From: Bradyrhizobium lablabi
GTDB lineage: Bacteria > Pseudomonadota > Alphaproteobacteria > Rhizobiales > Xanthobacteraceae
NCBI RefSeq assembly: GCF_900141755.1
Contig: NZ_LT670844.1
Location: forward strand, 6,730,501-6,794,500
Direction: 5' to 3'
Length of the DNA stretch: 64,000 nucleotides
The notes under the pieces are model-generated. The model saw only the letters and a list, made by a program, of their open reading frames with translations. It did no database searches and was not told where the DNA came from. The position numbers were made by a program, and so were the translations under genes. This document shows, in pieces, positions 32,174 to 63,532 of this stretch (positions are counted from its first letter, which is position 1; every line of letters starts with the position of its first letter).

Positions 32174-32274
32174 GTCATTCCGGGGCGCGCCTCTTGGCGC
32201 GAGCCCGGAATCCATACTCCCGATCGTGGTTATGGATTCCGGACTCGCTCGTTTCACTCGCGCCCCGGAATGAC
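32174..32274. repeat. Family 2 palindromic repeat, gene-less copy
   Basis: The arms start GTCATTCCGGGGCGCGCC and, on the opposite strand, GTCATTCCGGGGCGCGAG. Both run inward to GGAATCCATA, leaving only about ten bases between them. The same arms flank the GIY-YIG gene at 53894-54293. It separates coxD from coxE. Confidence 0.85.
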
Positions 32275-36609: not shown

Positions 36610-36640
36610 CGTCATTGCTTCGCATCGCCCCGGAATGACG
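36610..36640. repeat. Short family 2-like palindrome
   Basis: CGTCATTGCTTCGCATCGCCCCGGAATGACG has the family 2 outer ends (CGTCATT / GGAATGACG) around a very short core, so it is a remnant copy. Confidence 0.55.
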
Positions 36641-42467: not shown

Positions 42468-42570
42468 GTCATTCCGGGGCGATGCGAAGCATCGAACCCG
42501 GAATCTCGAGATTCCCCGATGTGCAATTGCACATCTGAGGTCTGGTCCTCGGGACCATCCCGGAAATGAC
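42468..42570. repeat. Family 2 palindromic repeat, variant with longer core
   Basis: The ends are GTCATTCCGGGGCG and CATCCCGGAAATGAC. The core holds nested palindromes: GATGCGAAGCATC, GGAATCTCGAGATTCC, GATGTGCAATTGCACATC and GGTCCTCGGGACC. It lies between the permease and cyclase genes. Confidence 0.75.
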
Positions 42571-53872: not shown

Positions 53873-53893
53873 AGTTTCTATGGCACTATCATT

Positions 53894-54293
53894 CGTCATT
53901 CCGGGGCACGCCACTTCGCGCGAGCCCGGAATCCATAACCCCCGATGCCCGCGATGGCGTACTGCGTCTATCTACTTGCGAACAGGAAGCACGGCACGCT
54001 TTATCTCGGCGTGACAAACGACATCGTGCGGCGTGTACGAGCATCGAACCAAGATCGTTCAGGGCTTTACGAAACGATACGGCGTCGACAAACTTGTCTG
54101 GTTCGAAATCTATGACGACGTAACGACCGCGATCGCCCGCGAAAAAGAACTCAAGAAATGGCGGCGCGACTGGAAGATCCGGCTGATCGAAGAGCAGAAT
54201 CCGGGCTGGGTGGATCTTTATCCCGGTATTTCAAACTGACATTGGGGGTTATGGATTCCGGGCCCGCGCCAAGTGGCGCGTCCCGGAATGACG
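53894..54293. mobile_element. Inverted-repeat element carrying a GIY-YIG nuclease gene (family 2 parent)
   Basis: A left arm of 50 bases (53894-53943) and a right arm of 50 bases (54244-54293) are inverted copies that agree at 46 of 50 positions with no gap. Both run from CGTCATTCCGGG inward to GGAATCCATAACCCCC. The 300 bases between them hold only the GIY-YIG gene: its first ATG starts two bases from the left arm and its stop ends four bases from the right arm. No target duplication is evident next to the arms. Gene-less copies with the same arm ends lie at 32174-32274 and, in shorter form, elsewhere. Movement by the nuclease is an inference. Confidence 0.7.
53945..54239 (+). pseudogene. GIY-YIG endonuclease gene, frameshifted
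   Basis: The reading starts MPAMAYCVYLLANRKHGTLYLGVTNDIVRR in one frame and continues YEHRTKIVQGFTKRYGVDKLVWFEIYDD...AIAREKELKKWRRDWKIRLIEEQNPGWVDLYPGI in another. Joined, this is a complete GIY-YIG single-domain nuclease of about 97 residues, with the CVY/YLG motif, the catalytic Arg in NDIVRR and the Glu in AREKELKKW. The break is near 54033-54036, where CGTGTAC would read RRVYEH if one more GT unit were present, suggesting slippage in a GT run or a base-calling error. Undisturbed relatives are common in rhizobia. It is enclosed by 50-base inverted repeats. Confidence 0.85.
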
Positions 54294-54357
54294 ACTGAGT
54301 TCTTGGCGTCGCGGTTCGCTTCACGGGGCTACGCTGACAACGCCTACGCCAGTAACG

Positions 54358-54387
54358 AAAAAACCCCGGCATCGCTGCCGGGGTTTT
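54358..54387 (-). terminator. Rho-independent terminator of groSL
   Basis: AAACCCCGGCA, loop TCGC and TGCCGGGGTTT form an 11-pair stem followed on the minus strand by further T residues. It begins 30 bases after the groL stop codon. Confidence 0.88.
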
Positions 54388-57833: not shown

Positions 57834-59807
57834 GTGAGGCGCGACTATCGCGAAGACATCGACTGGCTGCGCGCCATCGCCGTGCTGGCGGTGGTCGCGT
57901 TCCATTTCGAGGCGCCGGCGGTTTACGGCGGCTTTGTCGGCGTCGATATCTTCTTCGTGATCTCGGGCTATCTGATTACCGGGATCATCCAGTCTGAAGT
58001 AAAAAGCGGGACCTTTTCCTTCGCGCAGTTCTATGAGCGGCGGGTGCGCCGGCTGCTGCCCGCGCTTTACGCCATGGTGGTGCTGACGGCCATCCCCTCG
58101 TTCCACTATCTTTTGACATCGGAGCGGCAGGAATTCTTCCGCTCGGTCGCAGCGGTCGTGACCTTCACCTCGAATTTCTTCTTCTGGTTCCAGACCGGCT
58201 ATTTCGAGCATGCCGCGGTCGAAAAACCTTTGCTGCACACCTGGTCGCTGGCGGTCGAGGAGCAATTTTATCTGGCGCTGCCGCTGTCGTTATGGGCGCT
58301 GCTGCGCTTTGTAGGCGGCCGCCGCGTCGTGCCCGCAGCACTCGGCGTGCTGTCGTTGGCATCGTTTGCGCTGTGCATCTGGCTGATGCGGACCGACCGC
58401 TCCGCCGATGCGTTCTTCATGAGCCCGCCGCGCGCCTGGGAATTCTTGATCGGCGGCATCGTTGCGATCCCCGGCTTTCCGGTGTTGCGCCATGCGCTGG
58501 CGCAAGCAGTCGCGCGCGCCACAGCGCTGGTGCTGATCGCGATCCCGATATTCTCGCTGCGGCAAGGGCCGGGATTTCCGGGCTTCAACGCGCTGACGCC
58601 GTGCATCGGCGCCGCGATGTTCACCTGGAGCGGCATCGGCGTGCCGACGTTGAAGCGAAGTCGCTATTCGCCGTTCAATGTCGCAAGATTTTTCGGGCAG
58701 ATTTCCTATTCGCTCTATCTCTGGCATTGGCCGCTGTTCACCTTTGCGCGGTTCTCCAAGGCAGGCCTCGTGCTCGGCGCGACCGACAAGGTCGCGCTGT
58801 TCGCGCTGACGGTTTTGATCTCGTCTCTGTCGTGGCGATTTGTCGAACAGCCGTTCCGGCTGAAGGGGCTGGCGCCGACACGCGGGTTCATGTTTCGCAT
58901 CGCCGGCCTTGCAACGCTGGTCTTGCTGGCCGGCAGCGCCCTTGGGATCGTCGCCAGCCAAAGGCCGTCGGAAGCCGACCGCGTCGCGCTGCAGCTGGAA
59001 TCCTTTAACGCCTATGATTACCAGCCGCTCTATCGCTTCGGCAGTTGTTTCGCGCCTGCGAGCGGCGTCCTCGACGAGGTGTGTCTTGCTTTCGCGCCCG
59101 ATAAAACAAATTTGCTGCTCTGGGGCGACAGTCTGGCCGCGCATTATTTCCATGGTCTTGGCAAGACAACCGATCCGCGACTGACAAAAACCCTGCAGGC
59201 GACCCAGGCGGCGTGCATGCCGACCTTCAATGCGGCGGCGCAGGGCAATGCGTGGTGTCGCGGTTTTGCCGGCCAGATGGATGCATTTTTTGCCGATCAC
59301 AAGCCGGCCCTCGTCATTCTCTCGGCGGACTGGCTGGAATATTCCCGCCCGCCGCGGTTCGACGGCATGATCGCCGACCTCAAGCAAACCATCGCCAAAC
59401 TCAACGAGCGGGGCGTGCCTGTGGTGCTGCTCGGCCCCGCCGTGCAGTTCAGAAGCCGGCTGCCGTCGATGCTGATGCGCGCGCATCTGCGCCAGGTCGA
59501 CGCGCGCCCCGATGATTTCGTGCTGCCCGAAATTTTCGATCTCGACCGCAACATGAAGGCGGCGCTGCCGGCGCATGAAGGGTTTTCCTACATCTCTGTG
59601 GTCGATGTGATCTGTCCCGCGCGGCAATGTCCGCTCACCCTCGACGGCGGCATTCCCCTGGCGTGGGATCACGCGCATCTGACCGCGGAGGGGTCGGTCT
59701 ATGTGGTGAGCAGGCTGGCGCTCAAACGCGTCATTCCGGGGCAGCCCGCAGGGCTGAACCCGGAATCTCGAGATTCCGGGTCCACGCTGACGCGTGTCCC
59801 GGAATGA
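57834..59807 (+). CDS. OafA-type acyltransferase with SGNH domain; C-terminus made by a repeat
   Basis: This protein of about 657 residues has an acyltransferase-3 membrane domain (about 1-355; DYREDIDWLRAIAVLAVVAFHFEAP, VDIFFVISGYLITGII, FYERRVRRLLPALYAM, HTWSLAVEEQFY, YSLYLWHWPLFTFARF). A periplasmic SGNH domain follows (about 420-630; LLLWGDSLAAHYFHGL, ending WDHAHLTAEG with the Asp-x2-His pair). It probably acetylates a cell-surface polysaccharide or lipid A part. The last 26 residues are read from a family 2 palindrome and the stop codon is that repeat's own TGA. The start is the GTG at 57834 or a TTG at 57816. Confidence 0.88.
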   Translation: MRRDYREDIDWLRAIAVLAVVAFHFEAPAVYGGFVGVDIFFVISGYLITGIIQSEVKSGTFSFAQFYERRVRRLLPALYAMVVLTAIPSFHYLLTSERQEFFRSVAAVVTFTSNFFFWFQTGYFEHAAVEKPLLHTWSLAVEEQFYLALPLSLWALLRFVGGRRVVPAALGVLSLASFALCIWLMRTDRSADAFFMSPPRAWEFLIGGIVAIPGFPVLRHALAQAVARATALVLIAIPIFSLRQGPGFPGFNALTPCIGAAMFTWSGIGVPTLKRSRYSPFNVARFFGQISYSLYLWHWPLFTFARFSKAGLVLGATDKVALFALTVLISSLSWRFVEQPFRLKGLAPTRGFMFRIAGLATLVLLAGSALGIVASQRPSEADRVALQLESFNAYDYQPLYRFGSCFAPASGVLDEVCLAFAPDKTNLLLWGDSLAAHYFHGLGKTTDPRLTKTLQATQAACMPTFNAAAQGNAWCRGFAGQMDAFFADHKPALVILSADWLEYSRPPRFDGMIADLKQTIAKLNERGVPVVLLGPAVQFRSRLPSMLMRAHLRQVDARPDDFVLPEIFDLDRNMKAALPAHEGFSYISVVDVICPARQCPLTLDGGIPLAWDHAHLTAEGSVYVVSRLALKRVIPGQPAGLNPESRDSGSTLTRVPE

Positions 59808-59809
59808 CG
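59729..59809. repeat. Family 2 palindromic repeat overlapping the acyltransferase 3' end
   Basis: An 81-base element from CGTCATTCCGGGGCAGCCC to GTGTCCCGGAATGACG, with GGAATCTCGAGATTCC at its centre. Its TGA ends the acyltransferase reading frame. Confidence 0.85.
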
Positions 59810-63446: not shown

Positions 63447-63526
63447 CGTCATTCCGGGGCGCGCGTTAGCGCGAACCCGGAATCTCGAGATTCCGGGTCT
63501 GGTCCTTCGGACCATCCCGGAATGAC
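63447..63526. repeat. Family 2 palindromic repeat between Anbu and transglutaminase genes
   Basis: The ends CGTCATTCCGGGGCGCGCG and CATCCCGGAATGAC flank GGAATCTCGAGATTCC, as at 59729. Confidence 0.8.
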
Positions 63527-63532
63527 CAGATT

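Follow-up and report, generated by a model that had tools for sequence, protein, structure and literature searches.

A probable decayed nuclease-REP pair in Bradyrhizobium lablabi: a GIY-YIG gene between inverted CGTC-type REP units

The feature studied here is probably a decayed nuclease-REP pair, in which a single-domain GIY-YIG gene lies between two inverted CGTC REP units that would be the recognition sites of its product. It is situated in a 64,000-nt stretch of Bradyrhizobium lablabi DNA, the whole of which is termed the window; the source genome is a single contig of 7.91 Mb. Comparisons with other genomes support a general pairing of such nucleases with CGTC REPs that reaches far beyond the window.

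The locus

The inverted repeat comprises positions 53889-53947 and 54240-54298, with arms of 59 nt that are 90% complementary and separated by 292 nt. The original prediction of gapless 50-base arms was borne out at the cores (53894-53943 v. 54244-54293, identical at 46/50 positions), and the repeat even extends past them to its full 59 nt. Local alignment of the arm pair yielded a score of 44, compared to a top score of 12 in 100 shuffles. The left arm (53889-53947, + strand) is a CGTC-type REP unit with a core at 53894-53935 and an inner extension, CCATAACCCCC; the right arm (54240-54298, - strand) is a CGTC REP unit that mirrors it.

The gene between the arms (53954-54239, + strand) encoded a small GIY-YIG nuclease. 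Two nucleotides that are present in the relatives L010, L011, and L013 are missing from it, and the reading frame shifts near 54031-54036; the window copy is therefore a pseudogene. Its open C-terminal part (54033-54239) matched PF01541 (GIY-YIG) with an E-value of 2.5e-6. The expectation that the arms flank a GIY-YIG gene was thus correct as to the family, but the gene is not intact. In other genomes, intact relatives of this gene adjoin a copy of groEL. A perfect hairpin (AAAACCCCGGCA..TGCCGGGGTTTT, 54360-54387) follows the groEL stop codon in the window and was present in many of the fetched relatives; it is probably the groEL terminator.

Identity of the repeats

Each window arm, folded as single-stranded DNA, formed a hairpin in which the stem (ATTCCGGG..) was flanked by unpaired CGTC on the 5' side and by unpaired CCATAAC at the other end. 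The fold energies of the two arms were -10.4 and -17.1 kcal/mol (z = -2.6 and -4.4, respectively). CGTC REPs are known in Bradyrhizobium (Di Nocera, De Gregorio and Rocco 2013, PMC3733652), and the consensus given there has a CGTC tag, a stem that begins with AT, a CCA tail, and dimers that are mainly head-to-head. The 5' tag, AT-starting stem, and CCA tail were all found in both window arms, and the source genome carries head-to-head doublets in many copies. The doublets at 32174 and 59729 consist of two hairpin units head to head, with fold energies of -39.7 and -35.7 kcal/mol, and GTCATTCCGGG occurred 196 times in the 7.91-Mb genome v. twice for the reversed control. The loop of 4-5 nt that is also a trait of CGTC REPs was absent from the folds of both arms, in which a secondary stem occupied the loop. 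This mismatch does not bar membership, because the CGTC-1 REPs of Bradyrhizobium have loops of differing length (PMC3733652). The same source counts dRS3 of Neisseria and RPE-6 and RPE-4 of Rickettsia among the CGTC REPs. The window arms are CGTC-type REP units, and pairs of these units, inverted relative to each other, make up the short palindromes.

The short palindromes

The doublets in the window belong to two core classes, not to one family. The palindrome at 32174-32274, which had been singled out originally for having the same arm ends as the gene, does have them; it is a gene-less inverted doublet with the CCATA-type core, as judged from sequence and fold. It is the only one of the five palindromes named in the prediction to carry that core, so the proposal that all of them derive from the window gene is not supported. 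The four others had been regarded as relatives of the gene's arms. Three are doublets built on a different core, GGAATCTCGAGATTCC (the CTCGAG class): 42468-42570, which holds a nested second palindrome, and 63447-63527, both assigned by sequence, and 59729-59809, assigned by sequence and fold. The fourth, at 36610-36640, is by its sequence a single degenerate unit.

The CTCGAG-core class was represented by 57 exact doublet copies in the source genome, where they persist with no matching nuclease among those examined. In a tree of 72 nuclease proteins, arms of this class were found at just one gene, L075, which belongs to a different genome; the source-genome nucleases in that tree all lacked them. 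Strict CCAT-core doublets numbered only six in the source genome; the inner extension of the right arm, CCATAACCCCCAAT, recurred exactly in two of them and with one difference in a third. At the site of the 32174 doublet, a palindrome was present in 30/30 fetched loci (the best of 117 genomes, the source genome included), and the core types differed; it seems that one repeat family can take over from another at this one place. A second short palindrome (the GATGTGCAATTGCACATC type) was also observed nested within CGTC REP doublets, as though inserted, both at 42468-42570 in the window and at L268, L278, L285, and L025.

Association of nucleases with REPs

A protein search of 398 Pseudomonadota genomes detected the nuclease subfamily in 108. 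The first set of loci comprised 147 unique genes (151 before identical genes were merged). It contained 130 loci taken from the Pseudomonadota results ahead of their tail (L045-L074, 30 loci; L075-L174, 100 loci, of which L118 spans two places). Loci from a groEL search and from the source genome itself were also included, and the set is consequently enriched in Bradyrhizobium. For the strict REP test, an inward-facing CGTC REP had to lie within 300 nt of the gene; GTCAT was a required part of the pattern, and variants like GTCACC were therefore scored only as inverted repeats (IRs).

Inward REPs were found upstream of 61 of the 147 genes and, mirrored, downstream of 68, with 52 genes having both and 77 having either. 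REPs in the wrong orientation numbered 14 upstream and 25 downstream. The background in other windows of the same loci was 15/924 window-orientation tests, a figure that understates the intergenic REP rate because these windows include coding DNA, and shuffled upstream flanks gave 1/2940. The upstream and downstream flanks matched each other as an IR (score of at least 16) in 99/147 cases, v. 68/1461 mismatched flank pairs and 0/735 shuffles. In all, 117/147 genes had an inward REP or an IR, and 30/147 had neither.

A sister subfamily of small GIY-YIG genes (the L001 type) served as a control. From 28 loci, L180 was dropped for want of a hit, and 6 of the other 27 were excluded because they were closer to the REP-linked subfamily, leaving 21. 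The strict REP was present in 0/21 and an IR in 2/21, both of the latter in one genome; among the six excluded loci, the figures were 0/6 and 3/6. In genome G132, two loci of the control subfamily, L192 and L200, have IRs (scores of 18 and 31) that the strict pattern does not identify as CGTC REPs. Small GIY-YIG genes that lack such arms, named at the outset as an observation that would count against the idea, do exist in this sister subfamily and among the 30 genes mentioned above, but they do not characterize the REP-linked subfamily at large.

The second set was obtained in a separate scan of GTDB genomes. It holds 80 loci, the best of at least 578 confirmed relatives, and thus is not a random sample. 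The record titles named Planctomycetota, Omnitrophota, Nitrospirae, Chloroflexi, genera of Bacteroidota, and candidate phyla, and many of the records were MAGs. One of the 80 genes was identical to a first-set gene. Inward REPs occurred at 58/80 loci and on both sides of 42/80 (background 24/886), and IRs at 48/80 v. 78/791 mismatched pairs. A REP in any orientation or an IR was found at 72/80 loci; 8/80 had neither. The original prediction of an association like that of REPs and RAYTs with a different class of enzyme is supported by the REPs and IRs at related genes, by their near absence from the sister subfamily, and by this second set.

Individual loci varied. A relative in Neisseria gonorrhoeae (NZ_CP119140; 53% identical) has dRS3-type units on both sides. 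The gene of R. tumorigenes (L377) has no arms, and two Sinorhizobium loci have weak ones only (IR scores of 16 and 17). On a plasmid of Rhizobium sp. CIAT894 (L375), REP arms are accompanied by a longer IR of roughly 100 nt in a larger composite element.

The abundance of REPs was also compared to the presence of the nuclease. Among the 398 genomes, the nuclease was present in 46/68 that were REP-rich v. 62/330 others, with relatedness left in; by family, the figures were 20/26 v. 18/61. Twenty-two of the 68 REP-rich genomes had no detected nuclease and 62 of the 108 nuclease genomes were REP-poor by a single REP pattern, although the REP-rich and nuclease counts are both too low because one pattern and one query were used. 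Genome G081 contained one REP type in 18 copies but gave no hit to the nuclease. The repeat of the L002 type had a median of 4 copies in the 46 genomes with its nuclease, chosen by the analyst's cut on match length and identity with truncated copies excluded, v. 1 in the 71 genomes without it (p = 2.7e-6); association p-values of this kind are too small, since related species are not independent.

Matching of nuclease type to repeat type

Each of four nuclease types in the source genome has a repeat of its own. The matrix of arm matches was diagonal for L009, L002, L006, and the tandem pair L004/L005, the arms of the latter two matching each other; L003 had no arms. On either side of the tandem pair (at 7.808 Mb) there is not a single unit but a complete doublet, which belongs to a different class of repeat (GTCATTGCGAG..GAAGCAATCC). 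For 87 genes in 34 genomes, a gene's own arms matched in 61/87 cases v. 32/166 for the arms of other paralogues. The own arm was the unique best in 52/63 rows (23.7 expected), and none of 10000 permutations was as high as the observed sum.

On the tree of 72 nucleases from Bradyrhizobium and its family (4 of which lack an assigned arm class), the arm class changed 8 times. The minimum was 7, the mean of the shuffles was 34.9, and 0/200 shuffles were as low. Between genomes, the likeness of arms rose with nuclease identity, from 2% of pairs alike at 45-55% identity to 70% above 80%; within genomes, nuclease likeness was not a significant predictor of arm likeness (p = 0.42, 8 genomes). Because many of the loci are orthologous, the matching reflects a stable pairing more than repeated switching. 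Symmetry was often lacking in the L002 type, for which a crude motif located the repeat downstream in 27/30 cases and upstream in 7/30.

Filled, decayed, and empty sites

The polymorphism that had been proposed between filled and empty sites was found at orthologous sites, in filled, partly deleted, gene-less, collapsed, and empty states. At the L006 site (site M), 13/117 genomes matched contiguously through the arms and the gene, and one of these genes has an internal stop. Thirty loci were fetched, of which 13 were filled, 7 had a spacer of 12-15 nt, and 7 had other spacers or repeats. L216 has a partly deleted gene between its arms, L217 has the arms and a short remnant of the gene's end, and L218 has one collapsed unit. 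When a tree was built from the flanking sequences, filled loci were interspersed with gene-less ones, as read off the drawn tree; 14 gene-less rows were left ungrouped, and the change counts omit them. Site M reads more like an old insertion that was lost many times, a direction that the interspersion suggests.

In 7 records from related Sphingobium plasmids, the stretch is retained through the nuclease with at least 95% identity; 4 further records are shorter by about 300-450 nt. Eight records (4 filled and 4 gene-less) were compared in detail. In TYG64, a single unit combines the left half of the left arm with the right half of the right arm; TYG74 has a degenerate form of this fused unit, and the other two gene-less records have no unit. 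Since the stem is palindromic, its halves are short direct repeats, and slippage between them would explain the collapse to one unit. Together with L216 and L217, the collapsed Sphingobium unit supports the earlier suggestion to the extent that an element with a gene can turn into a gene-less palindrome at its own site. At the groEL-adjacent site, some genomes have the full element and others a doublet, a remnant, or nothing; orthology is less sure here because groEL is multi-copy. No clean empty site for a recent insertion was found in Rhizobium plasmids among the 30 of 134 records listed, although the Sphingobium plasmids did give one.

The mobility that had been supposed for the nuclease gene, taken as free movement, is not supported: the L002 type was at one site in 27/30 fetched genomes, and the pattern at site M looks more like repeated loss.

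The enzyme

The nuclease gene is under purifying selection. In three lineages, represented by 8 genes (13 usable pairs), 12 genes, and 30 genes, the median dN/dS values were 0.051, 0.076, and 0.065, respectively. No pair exceeded 0.5; the median dS values, at 1.2-1.9, were near saturation. Across 133 proteins of the subfamily, Y6, Y17, R27, H31, E64, and N83 were conserved at 97-99%, so that the catalytic residues are intact in the subfamily, with the window copy frameshifted. The AF2 model of an intact relative had a pLDDT of 95.6, and the nearest solved folds were GIY-YIG folds, i.e. those of UPF0213-type small GIY-YIG proteins (1zg2, E = 5.4e-5) and of SLX1 (Slx1-Slx4, 6seh, E = 5.9e-3). 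In L002 (3390951-3391214 of the source genome), the frame departs from the C-terminal NPxWxDL motif after NPN; this copy may also be damaged at its end.

Discussion

A mechanism can be proposed for the nuclease-REP pair. A REP that became single-stranded would form a hairpin whose GTC and CCA ends stay free, and the nuclease would probably nick single-stranded DNA at this hairpin, during replication or DNA uptake. GIY-YIG enzymes hydrolyze DNA with no strand transfer and cannot alone rejoin it; therefore, copying must fall to host repair. Repair would then copy or recombine REP units, which would raise the number of inverted doublets and keep them turning over. Inheritance of the gene seems to be mostly vertical, and its loss seems to occur through deletion between the arms, with gene-less or collapsed palindromes as the outcome. 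The comparisons themselves show the association, its orientation, the matching of types, selection on the gene, and intermediates in its loss, while recognition, single-strand cutting, and the spread of repeats through repair are inferred.

The chief rival to the decayed-pair reading is a host benefit, which is compatible with the spread of repeats. Under it, the enzyme is a domesticated host nuclease that cuts single-stranded REPs and thereby limits recombination or the uptake of foreign DNA, and the REPs are retained address labels that the enzyme does not spread. This possibility deserves serious consideration, though it is on balance doubtful. The strong purifying selection, the constancy of the L002-type site, and the effect that the Ssn nucleases are reported to have on natural transformation (see below) all favor it. 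However, the scatter of gene-bearing and gene-less relatives at site M, the occurrence of several paralogues with different repeats in one genome, and the broken copy in the window fit a dispensable element better.

A classical transposon with terminal inverted repeats, of which the short palindromes would be MITEs, would account for the co-occurrence of arms, gene, and gene-less doublets, and for the recurrence of CCATAACCCCCAAT in the CCAT-core doublets described above. It is nevertheless unlikely: 27/30 genes of one type occupy one site, the arms are self-folding REP units, and a GIY-YIG enzyme hydrolyzes with no strand transfer. With purifying selection on the gene, and with the only type examined for location found mostly at one site, the nuclease looks more like a RAYT than an insertion sequence. 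A homing-type endonuclease gene that invaded REP sites, in which case the arms would be two pieces of one target that was cut and then repaired, also seems improbable. GIY-YIG is a homing class, REPs lie beside many genes, and phage homing endonucleases were matched weakly (phrog_5123, E = 5e-5), but each arm is a whole REP unit rather than half of one. Finally, coincidence, in which the nuclease is an ordinary bystander in genomes where REPs are common and adjoin many genes, is very hard to credit even with an understated intergenic rate, given a background of 1.6-2.7% v. 52-72% of nuclease genes, the result of 0/21 in the sister subfamily, and the own-arm matching within genomes.

The proposed nuclease-REP pair can be compared to known systems. 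It shares the CGTC tag, the AT-starting stem, the CCA tail, and the mostly head-to-head doublets with the CGTC REP superfamily; the difference is that no dedicated enzyme was found for this superfamily by the authors of the 2013 study (PMC3733652), in whose main text the term 'GIY' does not appear, whereas a GIY-YIG nuclease is its regular companion here. Like REP/RAYT systems (REPtron, REPIN), it features a gene between inverted REP units of its own family, doublets throughout the genome, and repeat-specific enzymes. It differs in its tag (CGTC, as opposed to the GTAG of RAYT-associated REPs) and in its enzyme, which is a GIY-YIG hydrolase (PF01541) and not an HUH tyrosine transposase. The L001-type sister subfamily, for its part, differs from the REP-linked one in having no REPs.

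A further likeness is to Ssn, reportedly a family of site-specific single-stranded nucleases. Chenal et al. (Nature Communications, 2025) are reported to have described it as a GIY-YIG family that cuts single-stranded DNA in a sequence-specific manner at a Neisseria meningitidis repeat present in hundreds of copies, with an effect on natural transformation. In both systems, a small GIY-YIG nuclease goes with a repeat in the genome, which is the reported site of Ssn and the probable site of the nucleases studied here; Ssn is not known to have been framed as a partner of CGTC REPs or with filled, collapsed, and empty sites. Because the N. gonorrhoeae relative sits among dRS3-type units, the Ssn pairing is probably of the same kind as the CGTC REP pairing. 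The original statement that no named element of this sort exists was accordingly too strong, as the repeats are named CGTC REPs and Ssn nucleases have reportedly been described. Literature linking GIY-YIG proteins with REPs was absent among the matches listed, as judged from titles and abstract openings; what is new relative to those matches is the GIY-YIG nuclease as a partner of the CGTC REP superfamily at large.

A wider proposal, to which we would give somewhat less than an even chance, is that Ssn-like GIY-YIG nucleases are general partners of the whole CGTC REP superfamily (including dRS3 and RPE-4/6) across bacterial phyla. They would drive a REPIN-like population through single-strand cuts and copying by host repair, and would constitute a second, independently evolved REP system that is based on a hydrolase rather than a transposase.

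Backed by matched controls and by an additional set of loci, the association names a candidate enzyme family for the CGTC REPs, which had no known enzyme in the 2013 report. The pairing would unite repeats that have been studied under separate names (dRS3, RPE, and the bradyrhizobial REPs), and it would suggest at least two origins of REP populations, involving enzymes that are unrelated.
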